Shown: one piece after another, positions 17,451-28,062 of the stretch
Numbering within the stretch: the stretch's first letter is position 1
Layout: the number at the start of each line of letters is the position of its first letter
NCBI GenBank assembly: GCA_015063305.1
Contig: SVUJ01000004.1
Span: 62,001-126,000, forward strand
Reading direction: 5' to 3'
Length of the DNA stretch: 64,000 bases
Origin: Oscillospiraceae bacterium
GTDB lineage: Bacteria; Bacillota; Clostridia; Oscillospirales; CAG-272
Notes under the pieces: generated by a model
What the model was told of the DNA's origin: nothing
The model's input: only the letters and a program-made list of their open reading frames with translations
Databases searched by the model: none
Made by a program: the position numbers and the translations under genes

Positions 17451-18233
17451 TCATTTGGTTGAGCTTTTATAGTTACAGGTGACCGAAAGGGCGGCAAAGG
17501 CGCTGTTGCCCGTTTCTATCCTTATCGAATCAAATTTTGAGGCTGAGCCTTCATAGAGGATAGCGCTCAGATTAAGGGGCGCGTCAAAGGCGTACGCCGA
17601 TATCTCGGTTATGTTTGTGCTGAGCAGGTAAGAGGTGTCGGCACGGTTGCTCGGATAGCATACAAGAACTGTCTTATCCTTGGAGAAAAGCACACCGTCT
17701 ACCGAGCAGTATTTGGTATTCGTTACACTTACACTAAAGGATTTTATGCCACTACAGCCTACAAATGCGCCGTTTCCTATCTCCTTTACGGTCGAGGGTA
17801 TCTCAACCATCTCGATAAAGCTACAGTTCTCAAAAGCACCGTCGGCGATACCGACTACCGTATCTCCCTTGGGGCTCTTTTGGGGAATAGAGAGGTCTGG
17901 GCTTGTGTAAGTCCCTATTCCGATAACGGTACAAGTTCCGTCGCCGTTGCGCTCAAAGAGCAGAGAGGGCGCTTCGGTGGTGGCGGCTGTGGTTGCCGCC
18001 GTGGTAGCGGCGGTAGTCTGCGCCGCTGTGGTTGCCGCCGTGGTGGCTTCGGTTATCTCTGCAAATGCGCCCAAGGTAGCTTGTGTGTCCGCTTCGTCGT
18101 CAAGCACAGGCGGCTCTGACGGCTTTGAAAGATTAAGACAGGCAATAGTTATGATTATGGCGCTTATAAGTCCTACCGCCGTTGCCGACACGATAACTAT
18201 CTTTTTCTTGGGCATTTCGATCCATTTTTTCAT
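17451..18233 (-). CDS. Membrane-anchored BspA-type leucine-rich repeat protein
   Basis: A 260-residue surface protein. Residues 13-33 are an N-terminal membrane helix. A linker of Thr/Ala repeats (about residues 60-88, in TTAA units) would hold the domain away from the membrane. The rest is LRR_5/BspA-type repeats, for example GDTVVGIADGAFENCSFIEM, EIPSTVKEIGNGAFVGCSGI and ITEISAYAFDAPLNLSAI. Such proteins bind host or matrix ligands or act in envelope assembly. A good ribosome site (AAGGAGAG) precedes the ATG. Isolated gene with its own promoter and terminator. Confidence 0.85.
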   Translation of the reverse strand: MKKWIEMPKKKIVIVSATAVGLISAIIITIACLNLSKPSEPPVLDDEADTQATLGAFAEITEATTAATTAAQTTAATTAATTAATTEAPSLLFERNGDGTCTVIGIGTYTSPDLSIPQKSPKGDTVVGIADGAFENCSFIEMVEIPSTVKEIGNGAFVGCSGIKSFSVSVTNTKYCSVDGVLFSKDKTVLVCYPSNRADTSYLLSTNITEISAYAFDAPLNLSAILYEGSASKFDSIRIETGNSAFAALSVTCNYKSSTK

Positions 18234-20190: not shown

Positions 20191-20219
20191 TTGACATTTA
20201 TGTGCAATTATGATAAAAT
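20191..20219 (+). promoter_or_regulatory. Sigma-A promoter of lipoprotein array gene 1
   Basis: TTGACA, a 17-base spacer and TAAAAT within TGATAAAATAT, the same -10 context as in front of the other two array genes. Confidence 0.85.
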
Positions 20220-20273
20220 ATCAGTATATGTATATTGGTTTTATATCTATATTTTACGATAGGAGTTCTTGCT

Positions 20274-22931
20274 ATGAAAAATCTTGCGAAAATATCCCTC
20301 TGTCTTATGCTGGTGCTGTGCAGCATACTGTTGGTTTCTTGCAAGCATACGAATAAGACTGATGTTTGCCCCGACGGTTCTCATGTTTTTGAGGAGTGGA
20401 CCGTACTGAAGGAGGCTTCCTGCGGCGAAACAGGTAAGAGAAGCTCGGTTTGTACCGTGTGCGGAATCTCTACAGAGGAGGATATTCCCGCAACGAGTAT
20501 GCACACCGTTGTGCTTGAGCTGGAAAAGGGAGAGGGAGATGCTGCTTCCCAGATAGTAAAAAAATGCTCTTGCTGTAACGAGGTGCTTGAGGTACAGCTG
20601 CTCTCGGCACAGGGCGGCGAGCCGAACGTTCTTCAGAGTAACAATAACGTGGATATAGATATTTCTTCTTATAAGGTCATATATCCTCAGGTGAACGCGC
20701 TCAGACTCAGTGCGTCCGCCGCAAAGAGTCTTTCGAGGGCTATAGGCGCTATCTCGGGAGAGGGAATCAATGCACTTTCCGATCTTTCGCAGGAGCTTGC
20801 TTATACCGATAAGGAAATACTTGTTGGTGACACAAACCGCGCCGAATCAAAGGCTACCAAGGCTCTCCTTGTCGAGAAGGGATTTGCTATAGCGGTTATC
20901 GATAACAAGATAGCTATAGTTGGTTCTGACGAGATACAGACGATCCTTGCGATAAATTATTTCAGAGAGAACTATATTGTCGATACTGCTCAGATATCTA
21001 TTCCTAAGAGCATAGTGGTAAAATCCGACGCACAGAACGTTACTTTGTCGGCGGACTATACTGTTGTTTTTGCCCAGGGTCTTGATGACGCCGAGGGAAA
21101 CACTATTGAGTCCAACGCAGAGGCGAATGCACGCGACTATCCCTGTGTGGCGGCTGACGTGCTTGTTGCATATCTGGGTTTATCAAACAGAACGACCGAT
21201 GACAACGAAACAGAGCTTGAGGTTCTTATCGGAAAGGTGAACAGAGAGGTATATTCCGACTTCGCCGCTACGCTTGACGGAAATGAATACGGAATCCTTG
21301 TTAAGGACGGAAAGATAGTTATCGCGTCACACAGCTATCTCGGACTTGAGATATGCGTTTCTCAGTTCAAGGAGCTTCTGGCGTTTGCAAAAGAGGACTC
21401 TGCTTGGGTTCTCCCCGATGGATTCTACGTAAAGGGAGTGACCAACGATGATTGGGTAACCAACTTCCCACGTCCCAGCGGAACGCTTTACAACACCTTC
21501 GATTCAAACGATGACTCCTTGCAGTTCCTTTACACGGGAGTGAGCTCATCGGATTTCGACACCTACACCTCGCAGCTTGTAAGCGCGGGATACAGTGTGC
21601 TTACCGAAAACACGATAGAGAATAGTAAATTCAAAACACTTGTAAATGAGGCTAAGGGTATAACCCTTCACGTGTCTTATAACGATTTCAAGCACGAGGC
21701 TACTTATGCTGTTCAGGATACTTGGTACGTTGATTATGAAAAATGTATCCGCATAATATCCGCGCCGCTCGACTCGGTAACTCTGCCCGATTCGGGACTT
21801 CTTACTCCCAATCCCAGCTACACTAAGGTTGCCGATTCTGCCCTGAGTGCTGTAGGACTCGACGTCTACGCGGCAGGAATGAGCTATATTATCAGACTTG
21901 AGGACGGAAGGTTTATAATATACGACGGTGGAAAAAATGCTCCTACACCTACTGATGGAGAAGATACGGATGGATATACCAATACCGATGAGGTCGCACA
22001 GCTTTGGGAAGCGCTTGTTGAGCTTCACAGAGATGCATACGGCTCGGCACCGAGTGAAAGTCAGCCCATACACGTTGCGGCGTGGATCATAACTCACTCG
22101 CACGGTGACCACTTTGAGGTGTGCCGCGATTTCCTTGCTACCTACGGTAAGGACTCCAGGTTTGATATCGACTATATGATAGGCAACTTCCCCGCAGCGA
22201 ATGCTCTTCGTACTGCAAGAGGTGACGATAACTCAGATGCCGACGATATGGGACAGCCCAATGCTATATACAACATGCAGCAGGACGTTACGGGTGGATT
22301 TAAGTACGTAAAGGCTCATTCGGGTCATAAGTACTATATTGCTAACGTTACCATAGAGGTCCTTATGACTTATGAGGACCACAATCCCGCAACTATACAG
22401 TCGGAGAATGATGTTTGTACTATAACGAGAATATTTATAGGAGGCACGAGCACTGCGAACGGCGCTACCACTACTGCGGCATCGGCGGCAAGTACGGTCA
22501 AGGTAGTATTTTTGGGCGACGCGCAGAGATATCAGAGCCGTTACCTATGCGCTATGTATGGAAGCTATTTACAATCGGAGATGGTTCAAGTGGCGCACCA
22601 CGGTAATATAGGATGCGAGATAGCGCTTTACGATACCATATCACCCCAAGCACTTCTTATTCCGTATTCCGCGCCGATGGTACATAAGATATTGCATAAA
22701 GATGCGAATCTAACGATCGATGAATATGCGAAGGAAGTGGGATATTATTTGAGAAACAGCCTTGCCTCTGTTCAATACATATACGCATCTGCAGAGGGGA
22801 ATGTAACAACTATCGACATTACCTCGAGCGGAGCGCAGTATGGTAGCTTCTATAATGCGTTGACCGGAAGTGCGTTAAACTATACGAGTGATAGTAATGT
22901 TTACTTCTGGAATGGATACCTGAAAAAATAA
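20274..22931 (+). CDS. Secreted lipoprotein with metallo-beta-lactamase fold, array copy 1
   Basis: An 885-residue lipoprotein; signal ends in L-V-S-C23. Residues 30-110 are a Cys-rich segment unique to this copy (CPDGSHVFEEW, SVCTVCG, CSCCNE). Two repeated alpha/beta modules follow: residues 125-260 with EILVGDTNR and IAIVGSDEIQT, and 270-415 with TELEVLIGKVNRE and YGILVKDGKIVIA. They resemble the accessory domains of glucuronidase or hexosaminidase families. The C-terminal part is a metallo-beta-lactamase fold with T607-H-S-H-G-D-H613, VVFLGDAQRYQSR and A774-H-H-G. It is a likely metal-dependent hydrolase on the outer face of the membrane; substrate unknown. The ATG follows AGGAG. Confidence 0.85.
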   Translation: MKNLAKISLCLMLVLCSILLVSCKHTNKTDVCPDGSHVFEEWTVLKEASCGETGKRSSVCTVCGISTEEDIPATSMHTVVLELEKGEGDAASQIVKKCSCCNEVLEVQLLSAQGGEPNVLQSNNNVDIDISSYKVIYPQVNALRLSASAAKSLSRAIGAISGEGINALSDLSQELAYTDKEILVGDTNRAESKATKALLVEKGFAIAVIDNKIAIVGSDEIQTILAINYFRENYIVDTAQISIPKSIVVKSDAQNVTLSADYTVVFAQGLDDAEGNTIESNAEANARDYPCVAADVLVAYLGLSNRTTDDNETELEVLIGKVNREVYSDFAATLDGNEYGILVKDGKIVIASHSYLGLEICVSQFKELLAFAKEDSAWVLPDGFYVKGVTNDDWVTNFPRPSGTLYNTFDSNDDSLQFLYTGVSSSDFDTYTSQLVSAGYSVLTENTIENSKFKTLVNEAKGITLHVSYNDFKHEATYAVQDTWYVDYEKCIRIISAPLDSVTLPDSGLLTPNPSYTKVADSALSAVGLDVYAAGMSYIIRLEDGRFIIYDGGKNAPTPTDGEDTDGYTNTDEVAQLWEALVELHRDAYGSAPSESQPIHVAAWIITHSHGDHFEVCRDFLATYGKDSRFDIDYMIGNFPAANALRTARGDDNSDADDMGQPNAIYNMQQDVTGGFKYVKAHSGHKYYIANVTIEVLMTYEDHNPATIQSENDVCTITRIFIGGTSTANGATTTAASAASTVKVVFLGDAQRYQSRYLCAMYGSYLQSEMVQVAHHGNIGCEIALYDTISPQALLIPYSAPMVHKILHKDANLTIDEYAKEVGYYLRNSLASVQYIYASAEGNVTTIDITSSGAQYGSFYNALTGSALNYTSDSNVYFWNGYLKK

Positions 22932-22943
22932 AATTTAATATTG

Positions 22944-22976
22944 ATCCCCTTCGGGCATTACCTGAAGGGGATTTTA
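22944..22976 (+). terminator. Terminator of array gene 1
   Basis: ATCCCCTTC pairs with GAAGGGGAT around an 11-base loop, followed by TTTTATAG. Confidence 0.85.
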
Positions 22977-23021
22977 TAGTAGATTTTATGGTTTTCTCTT
23001 CACGGAAATTCTGCCCGAATA

Positions 23022-23050
23022 TTGACACATATCTTTAAATATGATAAAAT
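23022..23050 (+). promoter_or_regulatory. Sigma-A promoter of array gene 2
   Basis: TTGACA, a 17-base spacer and TAAAAT. The upstream TTCTGCCCGA and the whole spacer are nearly identical to the promoter of gene 3. Confidence 0.9.
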
Positions 23051-23100
23051 ATTGGCATGTATCATATGCGGTAACCTATTTTTGATAAGGAGAACTGACG

Positions 23101-25479
23101 ATGAAAAATAACGTTAAAATATTGATATGCCTTATTCTGATGCTGTGCAGTATACTCTTTGTATCTTGCAACCAATCAAATGAGCCTGACACACAAGAGC
23201 CCGATGCTCAGACTACACCGCAGCAGACTACTGCGGGTGAGCCGACACAAAACGAGGAAGAGGTTACCCAAAGTCGATTCTCCGGATATAGTGTAATATA
23301 CGCTCAGAGTGAGTTAAATTCTCTGAAGGCTACCGTGTCGGAGCACCTTGCCAGAGAGATAGGAAATATAGCCTTTGACAGCGATGAAGTGGCCACTGCG
23401 GAAAAAGAGATACTTGTTGGAGAGACCAATCGCGCCGAATCTGCATCGGCTAAGGCTTTGCTTGATGGAAGCGGCTTCGTTATATCGGTTATCAACAACA
23501 AGATAGCTATAGTCGGCTCTGACGATATACAGACGATACGCGCGGTAAATTATTTTACCGAAAAATATCTTGATACCAACGCGGAAATATCTGTTTCAGA
23601 GAGCGTAGTGGTTAAAGCCGATGCGCCCGACGTCAGTTTTTCCGATGCTTACACATTTGTTTTTTCGAGCAAGCTTGACGACACTGCGGGAAATATCTTT
23701 GCAAGCACCTCTAAGAAGGATGCTCGTGATTACCCTTGCGTAGCGGCAGACGACCTTATCACCTATATGGAGATAGTTCCCGCAAACAGAAAGCGCGCTA
23801 CCGATGATAATGTGACAGAGCTTGAGGTGCTCATCGGAGAGGTAGACAGAGAGGCATATTCGGATTTCGCTGTTACGCTTGCTGAAAACGAATATGGAAT
23901 TCTTGTCAAGGGCGGCAAGGTGATCCTTGCGGGACATAACAACCTTGCGATCGAGAAGTGTGTTTCGAGCTTCAAGGAGATTCTTGATCTTGCCAAGAAT
24001 GAATCCACCTGGGCGTTTTACGAGGGATTCTCTATAAAGGGAATAGCTAATTCCGACTGGGTCATTGATTTCACACGTCCCTCGGGAGAGGGTATAAGCC
24101 TTTATAACACGATGGACTGTAACGACGATTCCTTGCAGTTCCTCTACACGGGTACAGGCGTAAACGCCGCGGCGTTTGATACCTACTGCGCTCAGCTTAT
24201 ATCCGAGGGATATACCGTTCTTACCGAAAACACCATTGAGAACAGCAAATTCAAGACCTTGGTCAACAATGACAAGGGTATAACCCTTCACGTTGCATAT
24301 AACGACTTTAAGTACGAGTCTGATTATGTAGTTGATGATAAGTACAGCGTCGATTACGAAAAGTGTATACGAATAATATCCGCGCCGACCTCATCGGTGG
24401 ATCTGCCCACCGCAGATATGGTGACAGAAAACAGATCCTATACAAAGGTGGCTAATTCCACCCTTACGGCGCTTGGACTTGACCACAACGCGGTTGGTAT
24501 GAGCTATGTTATAAGACTTGAGGACGGTAGCTTTATAATCTTTGACGGTGGATATTATTCAAGCGGAATAGAACACGTTATCCTTTGGAAAATACTTGAA
24601 AATCTGCATACAGAGGCTTATGGCTCAGCTCCGAGCGCGGAAAACCCGATACGTATTTCCGCATGGGTAATTACCCACTCACATGCCGACCATTTCCGCG
24701 TATTCAAGAGCTTTATCGCTAAATATGGAAGTGATCCTCTTCTTGATCTCGAAGCTCTTGTCGGAAATTTCCCCGCTAACAACGTTCTTTGGCCTACGGG
24801 CGGTGCGAATGGCGGTATCAGTACTTTGGGCGCTGAGGGAGCGATCGCGGAATTCCAAGGCCAGGTGCTGGGCGGCTTTAAGTATATAAAGGTGCATGGA
24901 GGACAGAAGCTCCATTTTGCCAACGTGAGCGCCGAAGTGCTTATGACATATGAGGATCATAATCCCATCGGTATTCAGGAAGAGAACGACACCTGTACGA
25001 TACTCAGGCTCTCAATAAACACCACCGATGCTCAAAAGGGAAGTGTTACCTCTGCGGCATCAGCGGTAAATACCACTACAGCGGTATTTCTGGCCGACGC
25101 GCAGAGATATCAGAGCCGTTATCTGTGCGCTATGTACGGAAGTTATCTGAGCTCGGATATAGTGCAGCTTGCGCATCACGGCAACAATGGCTGCGAGATA
25201 CCCCTTTACGATGCTATACAGGCGTCTGTCGTGCTTTGGCCTGAGTGTAATACTCATGTTCCGATGTATATGAATCCCCAAAATCTACAGAAGGGATTTC
25301 ATTATGAGGTCGACCAACACGTTGTAAACATGAGTACGGTGAAATATATTATAGCTTCACACAAGGATTATTTTACAACCTTTGATTTCACCGAAGACGG
25401 TCCTGATTATGATAATATTTACGATGCCAGAACCGACAAGGCTCTCGAGTATGATGGAGTTATGTTCATAAAGAAATAA
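23101..25479 (+). CDS. Secreted lipoprotein with metallo-beta-lactamase fold, array copy 2
   Basis: A 792-residue paralogue of the gene before it. The lipobox is L-F-V-S-C23, followed by a Gln/Thr/Glu-rich linker instead of the Cys-rich segment. The two alpha/beta modules (EILVGETNR, IAIVGSDDIQT; TELEVLIGEVDRE, YGILVKGGKVILA) and the hydrolase domain are conserved, with T525-H-S-H-A-D-H531, FLADAQRYQSR and LAHHGNNGCE. Metal ligands appear complete. It is much closer to copy 3 than to copy 1, so the last duplication produced copies 2 and 3. Starts with ATG after a AAGGAGA site. Confidence 0.85.
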   Translation: MKNNVKILICLILMLCSILFVSCNQSNEPDTQEPDAQTTPQQTTAGEPTQNEEEVTQSRFSGYSVIYAQSELNSLKATVSEHLAREIGNIAFDSDEVATAEKEILVGETNRAESASAKALLDGSGFVISVINNKIAIVGSDDIQTIRAVNYFTEKYLDTNAEISVSESVVVKADAPDVSFSDAYTFVFSSKLDDTAGNIFASTSKKDARDYPCVAADDLITYMEIVPANRKRATDDNVTELEVLIGEVDREAYSDFAVTLAENEYGILVKGGKVILAGHNNLAIEKCVSSFKEILDLAKNESTWAFYEGFSIKGIANSDWVIDFTRPSGEGISLYNTMDCNDDSLQFLYTGTGVNAAAFDTYCAQLISEGYTVLTENTIENSKFKTLVNNDKGITLHVAYNDFKYESDYVVDDKYSVDYEKCIRIISAPTSSVDLPTADMVTENRSYTKVANSTLTALGLDHNAVGMSYVIRLEDGSFIIFDGGYYSSGIEHVILWKILENLHTEAYGSAPSAENPIRISAWVITHSHADHFRVFKSFIAKYGSDPLLDLEALVGNFPANNVLWPTGGANGGISTLGAEGAIAEFQGQVLGGFKYIKVHGGQKLHFANVSAEVLMTYEDHNPIGIQEENDTCTILRLSINTTDAQKGSVTSAASAVNTTTAVFLADAQRYQSRYLCAMYGSYLSSDIVQLAHHGNNGCEIPLYDAIQASVVLWPECNTHVPMYMNPQNLQKGFHYEVDQHVVNMSTVKYIIASHKDYFTTFDFTEDGPDYDNIYDARTDKALEYDGVMFIKK

Positions 25480-25486
25480 AAAGATA

Positions 25487-25526
25487 AAAGCAGCCCCTTC
25501 AAACCACGGTTTGAAGGGGCTGCTTT
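25487..25526 (+). terminator. Terminator of array gene 2
   Basis: A perfect 19-base-pair stem (AAAGCAGCCCCTTCAAACC and its complement) with an AC loop. The design matches the terminator after gene 3. Confidence 0.88.
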
Positions 25527-25570
25527 ACGGTTTGCTTAATTCTTTTCTTTATACAAATTCTGCCCGAGTG

Positions 25571-25599
25571 TTGACACATATCTTTTAATATGATAAAAT
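25571..25599 (+). promoter_or_regulatory. Sigma-A promoter of array gene 3
   Basis: TTGACA, a 17-base spacer and TAAAAT, a near copy of the gene 2 promoter. Confidence 0.9.
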
Positions 25600-25647
25600 A
25601 TCATTATCTATTTAATCTCGTAATGTAGCAGACAAGGAGAGCTGATT

Positions 25648-28011
25648 ATGAAAAACACTGTTAAAATATTGTTGTGTCTTATCTTGATGCTGTGCAGTAT
25701 ACTCTTTGTATCCTGTCGCCCGTCGAATGAGCCCGACGCTCAGACTACATCGCAGCAGACAACAGCGGGTGAGCCTGTACAAAACCAGGAAGAAGACCCC
25801 GGTGTTGACCTCGCTACATATAGTGTGGTATACGCTCAGAGTGAGTTGAATTCTCTGAAGGCTACCGTGTCGGAGCACCTTGCCAGAGGGATAGGAAATA
25901 TAGCTTTTAGCAGCGACGAAGCGGCTGCGGCGGAAAAAGAGATCCTCGTTGGAGAGACCAATCGCCCTGAATCGGCATCGGCAAAGGCTTTGCTTGATGG
26001 AAGCGGCTTCGTTATATCGGTTATCAACAACAAGATAGCTATAGTCGGCTCTGACGATATACAGACGATACGCGCGGTGAATTATTTTACCGAAAAATAT
26101 CTTGACACCAACGCGAAGATATCCTGTTCCGAGAGTGTAGTGGTCAAGGCAGATGCGCCCGACGTAACTCTTTCAGATGCTTACACCTTTGTTTTTTCGA
26201 GCAAGCTTGACAACACCCCCGGAAATACCCTGGGTACTAACACGAATAAAAACGCGCGAAATTACCCTTGCGTAGCGGTAGACAAACTTATCACGTATAT
26301 GGAGATAGTTCCCAAAAACAGAAAGCGCGCTACCGACGATAAAGTGACAGAGCTTGAGGTGCTTATCGGAGAGGTAGACAGAGAGGCTTATTCGGATTTT
26401 GTGGCTACACTTGCGGAAAACGAGTATGGAATTCTTATTAAGGGCGGCAAGATAATTCTTGCGGGACATAACGATCTTGCGCTTGAGAAGTGTGTTTCGA
26501 GCTTCAAGGCGCTTCTTGATCTTGCCAAGAACGAAACAGCCTGGGCGTTTTACGAGGGATTCTACATAAAGGGAATAGCTAATGCCGATTGGGTAATTGA
26601 TTTCACACGTCCCTCGGGAGAGGGCATAAGCCTTTATAACACGATGGACTCGAACGACGATTCCTTGCAGTTTCTCTACACGGGTACAGGCGTAAATGCG
26701 GCGGCGTTTGATACCTACTGCGCTCAGCTTATATCTGAGGGATATACCGTTCTTACCGAAAACACCATTGAGAACAGCAAGTTCAAGACCTTGGTGAACA
26801 ACTACAAGGGTATAACCCTTTACGTTGCATATAACGACTTTAAGTACGAATCTCATTATGTAGTTGATGATAAGTACAGCGTCGATTACGAAAAGTGTAT
26901 TCGCATCGTGTCCGCTAAGCTTACCTCGGTGGATCTGCCCGATGAGGAGATCCTTACCGAGAATCCCGAGTACGTCAAGGTCGCCAATTCAACCTTGTCT
27001 ACCTACGGACTTACCCACAAATCGGTGGGTATGTGCTACGTTATAAGGCTTGAGGACGGAAGCTTTATAATCTTTGACGGTGGTTATCTTTCAAGGGGAA
27101 TTGAGCATATGGATCTTTGGAATCTGCTTACAGAGCTGCACACCGAGGCCTATGGTTCAGCTCCGAGTGAGGAAAATCCCATACGAATTGCCGCGTGGGT
27201 AATAACCCATTCACATTCCGACCACTATTATGTTTTGAAGGCGTTTGTCAGAAAGTACGGACCCAATCCCACCCTTAAGTTTGAGCGTCTTATCGGAAAT
27301 TTCCCCTCAGGAAACGTTCTTCAGGTTACGGGCGGCAGAAACAGTTCTATTAGGGATATGGGACTTGAGGAGACTATTCCCACTTTCCAGGGTCAGGTTA
27401 CGGGCGGATTTGATTACATAAAGGTACACGCGGGGCAGACCTTCTACTTTGCCAACGTGAAGATGGAAGTGCTTATGACTTATGAGGACCACAATCCTGT
27501 AAGCATACAGGGAGAAAATGATACCTGTACGATAGTAAGGCTTACTATAGCGACCACGGATGAACAAAAAGGAGCTACCACCTCGGCAGCTGAGGCTGTG
27601 AATAGTGTTAGCGCTATGTTCCTTGGCGATGCTCAGAGATATCAGAGCCGTTATCTGTGCTCTATGTACGGCGATTATCTGCGCTCGGATATGGTACAGC
27701 TCGCGCATCACGGCAATATAGGCTGCGAAATACCGATATACGACGCTATACAGGCGTCTGTCGTCCTTTGGCCCGAATGTAGTGAACACGTTTCAATGTA
27801 TATGAATCCCGACAACTCTCATAAAGGATTTTTCTATGAGGTAGACCAGTACGTTGTTGCAATGCCTTGTGTTAAATATATTATTGGGGCGAATGAAGAA
27901 TATGATACGACCTTTAACTTCACTGTAGACGGTCCTGATTATGACAATCTGTATGATCCTCAATTAAAACAGGCTGTAGAGTATGATGGCGTCTCGCTTA
28001 TAAAGAAATAA
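25648..28011 (+). CDS. Secreted lipoprotein with metallo-beta-lactamase fold, array copy 3
   Basis: A 787-residue third paralogue: lipobox L-F-V-S-C23, a Thr/Gln linker, the two alpha/beta modules, and the hydrolase domain with T520-H-S-H-S-D-H526, FLGDAQRYQSR and LAHHGNIGCE. Long stretches are the same as in copy 2, while the segments around the metal site and the C-terminus differ more, as expected if substrate preference is shifting. ATG follows AAGGAGA. It has its own promoter and terminator, so each copy can be expressed alone. Confidence 0.85.
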   Translation: MKNTVKILLCLILMLCSILFVSCRPSNEPDAQTTSQQTTAGEPVQNQEEDPGVDLATYSVVYAQSELNSLKATVSEHLARGIGNIAFSSDEAAAAEKEILVGETNRPESASAKALLDGSGFVISVINNKIAIVGSDDIQTIRAVNYFTEKYLDTNAKISCSESVVVKADAPDVTLSDAYTFVFSSKLDNTPGNTLGTNTNKNARNYPCVAVDKLITYMEIVPKNRKRATDDKVTELEVLIGEVDREAYSDFVATLAENEYGILIKGGKIILAGHNDLALEKCVSSFKALLDLAKNETAWAFYEGFYIKGIANADWVIDFTRPSGEGISLYNTMDSNDDSLQFLYTGTGVNAAAFDTYCAQLISEGYTVLTENTIENSKFKTLVNNYKGITLYVAYNDFKYESHYVVDDKYSVDYEKCIRIVSAKLTSVDLPDEEILTENPEYVKVANSTLSTYGLTHKSVGMCYVIRLEDGSFIIFDGGYLSRGIEHMDLWNLLTELHTEAYGSAPSEENPIRIAAWVITHSHSDHYYVLKAFVRKYGPNPTLKFERLIGNFPSGNVLQVTGGRNSSIRDMGLEETIPTFQGQVTGGFDYIKVHAGQTFYFANVKMEVLMTYEDHNPVSIQGENDTCTIVRLTIATTDEQKGATTSAAEAVNSVSAMFLGDAQRYQSRYLCSMYGDYLRSDMVQLAHHGNIGCEIPIYDAIQASVVLWPECSEHVSMYMNPDNSHKGFFYEVDQYVVAMPCVKYIIGANEEYDTTFNFTVDGPDYDNLYDPQLKQAVEYDGVSLIKK

Positions 28012-28020
28012 GAAAGTAAA

Positions 28021-28062
28021 AAACACCCCATTCAAGCCACGGCTTGAATGGGGTGTTTTTTT
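28021..28062. terminator. Bidirectional terminator between array gene 3 and the GNAT-like gene
   Basis: AAACACCCCATTCAAGCC pairs perfectly with its complement around an AC loop, with a run of T on the plus side and A on the left flank. It serves both convergent genes. Confidence 0.92.

Follow-up and report, generated by a model that had tools for sequence, protein, structure and literature searches.

Gene array and transcription units

Within the window, by which we mean the whole 64,000-nucleotide stretch of DNA analysed, three lipoprotein genes lie in tandem on the + strand and encode proteins of 885, 792 and 787 residues (Table 1). Identity is 78% between copies 2 and 3 and 55% between copy 1 and either of them, values far above chance. 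The original prediction, made from the sequence alone, had described three consecutive genes of common architecture, as the coordinates, lengths and identities confirm, and its limits of 20191-28062 correspond to the -35 box of the first promoter (20191) and the terminator behind copy 3 (28018-28061). The ATG of copy 1 stands behind AGGAG, and an alternative TTG at 20235 would give a protein of 898 residues. By reading, the paralogues of contigs C6 and C4 also contain Cys-rich stretches like the insert of copy 1. On the upstream side of the array, a few genes away, the - strand encodes a 260-residue protein with BspA-type leucine-rich repeats (17451-18233).

Table 1. Features of the tandem array, in window coordinates
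Feature	Position	Strand	Description
Promoter of copy 1	20191..20219	+	TTGACA-17-TAAAAT, TG extension; 11/12 consensus bases
Copy 1	20274..22931	+	885-aa lipoprotein: two modules, middle domain and metallo-β-lactamase (MBL) domain; extra Cys-rich segment past the signal
Cys-rich insert of copy 1	20361..20603	+	CxxC pairs; from alignment and sequence reading; not in copies 2 and 3
HSHGDH metal motif of copy 1	22095..22112	+	
Terminator hairpin of copy 1	22943..22973	+	Followed by TTTTA; 55-base fold -24.6 kcal/mol; missing from stricter terminator scan
Promoter of copy 2	23022..23050	+	TTGACA-17-TAAAAT, TG extension
Copy 2	23101..25479	+	792-aa lipoprotein, architecture as in copy 1
HSHADH metal motif of copy 2	24676..24693	+	
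Terminator hairpin between copies 2 and 3	25487..25526	+	Symmetrical, -33.1 kcal/mol on the + strand; scan lists the - strand
Promoter of copy 3	25571..25599	+	TTGACA-17-TAAAAT, TG extension
Copy 3	25648..28011	+	787-aa lipoprotein; copy used for the structure model
Module 1 of copy 3	25810..26172	+	GH20b/NAGLU_N-like α/β; residues about 55-175
Module 2 of copy 3	26173..26601	+	Homologue of module 1; residues about 176-318
Middle domain of copy 3	26602..26943	+	β-β-α-β-β-β-β; ~115 residues, 319-432
MBL-fold hydrolase domain of copy 3	26968..28008	+	From Pfam, PDB profile search and fold search
HSHSDH metal motif of copy 3	27208..27225	+	Residues 521-526
Asp661 of copy 3	27628..27630	+	Invariant in 124 sequences
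His687-His688-Gly689 (AHHG) of copy 3	27706..27714	+	Both His invariant in 124 sequences
Terminator of copy 3	28018..28061	+	20-bp stem

Each of the three genes is its own transcription unit, with a promoter-like site in front of it and a terminator-like site behind, and a reading of the array as an operon was rejected on this account. Promoter-like sites matching 11 or 12 of the 12 consensus bases stand upstream of all seven copies in this genome, including the four paralogues outside the window, and hairpins of -21.6 kcal/mol or lower lie downstream of six of the seven, the exception being a copy on C6 (C6c) with only -9.1 kcal/mol (55 bases folded). Such promoters are nothing special here, as 12 sites with at least 11 consensus matches occur within the window. 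A function based on neighbouring genes was also rejected, no functional gene recurring in Pfam tallies of 65 and 119 neighbours, which fits a self-contained enzyme. Among the sampled neighbours the sole pair that recurs is alaS and a Fumble/BcrAD-type kinase, each seen with five members, and we take this pairing to reflect shared synteny.

Accessory domains and the metal site

The AlphaFold2 model of copy 3, built on 124 aligned sequences, has a mean pLDDT of 91.3 and a pTM of 0.90. Residues 1-23 form the lipoprotein signal, with Cys23 invariant in an alignment of 18 members. The two α/β modules that follow are homologous to one another (profile-profile probability 99.6%, BLASTP E 8e-5), and in a fold search of the PDB they match the accessory regions of GH20 and lacto-N-biosidase, GH84 and GH115 enzymes. 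Pfam matches of the modules are below the cut-off in the window proteins or come from relatives and are weak there, and a sequence search of the PDB gave no match for them. The predicted fold of the two N-terminal modules resembles that of the GH20b, NAGLU_N and GH67N accessory modules of the GH20, GH84, GH89, GH67 and GH115 enzymes; in the window proteins, however, Pfam recognises no glycosidase domain and the modules carry an MBL domain instead.

Between module 2 and the MBL domain lies a conserved domain that had been overlooked in the original prediction. Modelled alone it reaches a pLDDT of 93.8, with no fold match in the PDB at E ≤ 0.001, and a weak link to DUF6591 of Pfam is possible (10 of 84 members, best E 2e-4). 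This β-rich middle domain is previously undescribed, and the lack of a significant match to any solved structure makes it an obvious candidate for structure determination. The lipoprotein signal, the pair of repeated α/β modules, their likeness to those of carbohydrate-active enzymes and the C-terminal hydrolase with H-S-H-x-D-H and A-H-H-G, all claimed at the outset, are borne out, the last in all three copies; the order given, signal, two modules, MBL, is correct as far as it goes but incomplete.

Membership of the MBL superfamily is seen from Pfam, from the fold and from metal-site residues that are intact in all three copies. Lactamase_B (PF00753) scores above its cut-off for copies 2 and 3 and is not listed for copy 1. 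The HSHxDH motif is followed in each copy by GD or AD and then by AHHG. Across the family the residues equivalent to H521, H523, D525, H526, D661, H687 and H688 are intact in 122 of the 124 aligned members, despite a mean column identity of only 18%. The two members with an altered motif are L069:276-2807 (HxSxDH) and L071:11024-12289 (HxDxDH).

A search of the PDB with a single protein returned chance matches only, and an alignment profile was required. With the profile, the MBL domain of ComEC was best (E 1.7e-10), followed by Pce/CbpE (5.5e-8), both ahead of all other MBL enzymes; the Pce/CbpE match is the one that spans HxHxDH. Foldseek against the PDB likewise ranked the MBL domain of ComEC first and Pce second, at 13-14% identity. 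Structure prediction and fold comparison thus give a complete predicted MBL metal site close to those of ComEC and Pce.

The MBL domain of ComEC degrades DNA and has the motif HxDxDH, and the serine that follows its HHG (S728) is implicated in DNA binding and affects the nuclease rate (PMC12455585). ComEC/Rec2 (PDB 9ic4, 9vc6) has the GD and HHG motifs in common with the window proteins, but these lack HxDxDH, the serine after HHG and the membrane channel: the family motif is HxHxDH (122 of 124), serine is not one of the residues commonly found after HHG, and the window proteins have no match to the Competence (PF03772) channel. Pce releases phosphorylcholine from teichoic acids (PMC4929436). 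Like the window proteins, Pce/CbpE (PDB 2bib, 1wra) is a modular extracellular surface enzyme of MBL fold, with HxHxDH followed by N, D and HH, and residues corresponding to those of its two-metal centre are present in the window family. Since HxHxDH occurs in both the family and Pce and no serine is conserved after HHG, the predicted site, judged by these motifs, resembles that of Pce more than that of ComEC. The two differ in their surroundings: Pce carries choline-binding repeats and acts on the phosphorylcholine of its own cell's teichoic acids (PMC4929436), whereas the window proteins have a lipid anchor, GH20b-like modules and the middle domain, and none of the three copies has a Pfam match to choline-binding repeats.

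Two further loci of the same genome carry ComEC-type sequences. The genome's own Competence match is a separate frame of 721 residues (L201, contig C20) that is devoid of HxHxDH, HxDxDH and HHG, with LTHYHKAHISS in its last 260 residues; going by these motifs, this Competence-family protein may have lost the nuclease site. On contig C15, a lipoprotein-like gene of 527 residues with two weak module matches and no MBL motif (L131:3819-5402) is followed by a gene for a stand-alone ComEC-like MBL protein of 365 residues with HAHQDH and HHGS (L131:5885-6982), and this pair is a split counterpart of the fused proteins.

Distribution and duplication of the family

The genome has seven copies, three in the window, three on C6 and one on C4, with unrelated genes around them by reading of the frames. 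Among 147 related genomes searched, this one included, 76 match copy 3. The domain combination, which had been thought unusual, is therefore not rare within its own clade. A scan of GTDB yielded at least 446 stretches encoding relatives. The 79 loci retained are mostly from metagenome-assembled genomes whose titles mention deer, sheep, goat, yak, horse or rabbit samples, the others having an unstated or different source; the family is greatly expanded in herbivore-gut Clostridia. In 299 genomes drawn from the phylum, the full profile of middle and MBL domains matched in this genome only, and in 13 others the match began at about position 126, that is, in the MBL domain without the middle domain. 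Adjacent copies on the same strand were found at 22 of 78 GTDB loci (at least two) and at 11 (at least three), with a maximum of seven. Protein lengths suggest versions with two modules, one or none as well as long fusions, the shortest length classes including frames cut by contig ends.

Scans of genome contigs and viral contigs with the window proteins gave no relative confirmed by tblastn, and no match was found among plasmids (query copy 3) or phages (query the short relative L029). In a viral structure library, two unnamed entries, F8UBN2 and B6CXF5, match a window protein with E about 1e-12. We found no family of this architecture in Pfam or NCBIfam, nor a description of it in the literature, so that the well-described family that would have overturned the original prediction did not appear; nor did the other refuting outcome, a predicted fold without a metal site. 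The proteins represent a variant of the MBL hydrolases at the level of a family, as yet unnamed, and not a new kind of system.

In the tree the seven copies of this genome form one clade (100/99) and the three of the window a subclade (98/92), in agreement with the proposed diversification by duplication. The arrays of L053 and L078 also cluster by genome, and L066 and L083 have orthologous pairs in common. Between copies 2 and 3, dN/dS is about 0.2. Across residues 76-425 most windows give a dS of 0.12-0.45, with 0.78 and 0.55 near 151-225, and past residue 425 the values rise to 0.7-1.9 in the computable windows. Fourfold sites point in the same direction (34 of 160 differing versus 47 of 108), and the Fisher p of 1.4e-4 is not an unbiased p-value, as the split at residue 425 was chosen after viewing the profile. 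This mosaic divergence, with lower dS and fewer fourfold differences across residues 76-425, fits a partial gene conversion of the accessory half of the two genes. Faster evolution of the MBL domain as an adaptive change was rejected as the sole reading, synonymous divergence rising alongside.

Probable function

It would seem rather likely that these surface lipoproteins hydrolyse phosphodiester bonds in an extracellular polymer of the herbivore gut. The nearest solved relatives, ComEC and Pce, both cleave phosphodiesters, which argues for this chemistry, as does the joining of the same modules to phosphoester hydrolases in sister proteins. In single relatives the modules precede GDPD, alkaline phosphatase or Exo_endo_phos domains, the last just under the cut-off. 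These module-EEP, module-GDPD and module-alkaline phosphatase lipoproteins are laid out in the same way and end in a phosphoester hydrolase, though their catalytic folds are unrelated to the MBL fold. A sample of 55 proteins contained Exo_endo_phos 16 times, GxGYxYP 8, GH26 5, GDPD 5, DUF4838 2 and alkaline phosphatase 2; because EEP and GDPD queries were used to collect it, its proportions are biased, and its variety is not. The module is a chassis with exchangeable catalytic parts. In related genomes (L133-L196) it is joined to EEP, GDPD, alkaline phosphatase, GH26, GxGYxYP, DUF4838, DUF4886 and other domains, and in this genome a secreted protein of 964 residues has one module and no MBL motif (L132:5725-8619, contig C1).

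Against the phosphodiester reading, the matches to ComEC and Pce are distant, at the identities given above, and the modules also carry GH26, GxGYxYP and DUF4838 in sister proteins, so the modules alone are no sign of phosphodiesters. The poor conservation of the ComEC serine, the failure to find LicD and TagF-type genes in this assembly, which leaves the substrate pathway of Pce itself unseen, and the short relatives described below also weigh against it. The surface hydrolysis of a polymer or phosphodiester that had been proposed agrees with the lipid anchor and the metal site, and such a substrate is suggested by homology to Pce and ComEC and by the domain swaps.

We infer catalysis, phosphodiester chemistry, modules that position the substrate and a nutritional role. 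The phosphodiester would be attacked by water activated at a two-metal site like that of Pce and ComEC, and the lipid anchor and three accessory domains would place the catalytic domain outside the cell and away from the membrane. The GH20b/NAGLU_N-like modules and the β-rich middle domain probably help to bind a glycan-containing substrate, for which phosphorylated glycans, teichoic-acid-like polymers of other bacteria and nucleic acid are candidates. Phosphate- or sugar-containing products would then be released for uptake, and the several similar copies may provide differing preferences or more enzyme. Choline trimming of the cell's own wall, of the pneumococcal type, is unlikely: neither LicD nor TagF-type (Glyphos_transf) genes were found in the genome's own assembly, which is about 95% complete, and a foreign or environmental substrate is for this reason more likely than the cell's own choline-decorated wall.

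The modules could instead be ordinary CAZyme accessories and the MBL domain could strip plant or host glycans of an ester substituent, as a carbohydrate-ester, lactone or sulfate-ester hydrolase. The resemblance of the modules to GH20, GH84 and GH115 accessory regions, the GH26, GxGYxYP, DUF4838, DUF4886 and pectate-lyase-like (RHGA/epimerase) families among the sisters and the presence of an MBL-fold arylsulfatase (8gyg) among the fold matches are all consistent with this, but the two relatives closest by both sequence and fold cleave phosphodiesters, and in a sample queried with EEP and GDPD no single glycosidase partner is as frequent as the EEP, GDPD and alkaline phosphatase partners taken together; we regard ester hydrolysis as unlikely, if a serious alternative. 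That the proteins are extracellular nucleases, a ComEC-like domain freed from the DNA channel and degrading environmental or biofilm DNA, is suggested by ComEC being the top match in sequence and fold, and the EEP-fold sisters could be nucleases too. This is quite improbable, however, given the departures from the ComEC motif and serine described above and the failure to recognise any DNA-binding domain.

Large surface proteins encoded in arrays commonly serve for binding, and two members of the alignment have an altered metal motif, as would suit adhesins or sensors that retain the fold only. The near-invariance of the metal-site residues in so divergent an alignment and the low dN/dS between copies 2 and 3 nevertheless make a non-enzymatic role very unlikely. 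Some core members match the bla_class_B, Avs1a and 6A-MBL models, with E down to about 1e-8, which might suggest class B β-lactamases or antiphage MBL effectors. But the NCBIfam scan of the cores, in which some relatives weakly match class B, gave no model for the core of copy 3, and ComEC models match more members and match them better; class B models are not among the NCBIfam matches of the full-length window proteins either. Antiphage effectors act within the cell, whereas the proteins here are secreted, modular and 800-900 residues long, and such a function is scarcely credible.

Returning to phosphodiester hydrolysis, the proteins may, more tentatively, be members of a lineage-specific and previously unnamed superfamily of surface phosphodiesterases, built on a lipid-anchored chassis of GH20b-like modules that serves the unrelated MBL, EEP, GDPD and alkaline phosphatase domains alike. 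Herbivore-gut Clostridia would then have a surface system for degrading phosphopolymers, with a new domain fold in the MBL branch, a proposal that is possible rather than probable. The family occurs in hundreds of gut genomes, its arrays reaching seven genes, and we found no name or activity for it. If the phosphodiester reading is true, the proteins would give these Clostridia one of their main means of attacking phosphorylated polymers at the surface, and modules regarded as glycosidase parts would prove to be a general chassis for swapping catalytic domains. Relatives of about 280-300 residues that are essentially the MBL domain alone, with no evident signal peptide, were found at L045:11706-12629, L079:6141-7034, L084:8000-8851 and L115:7833-8765, and some family members may therefore act intracellularly.
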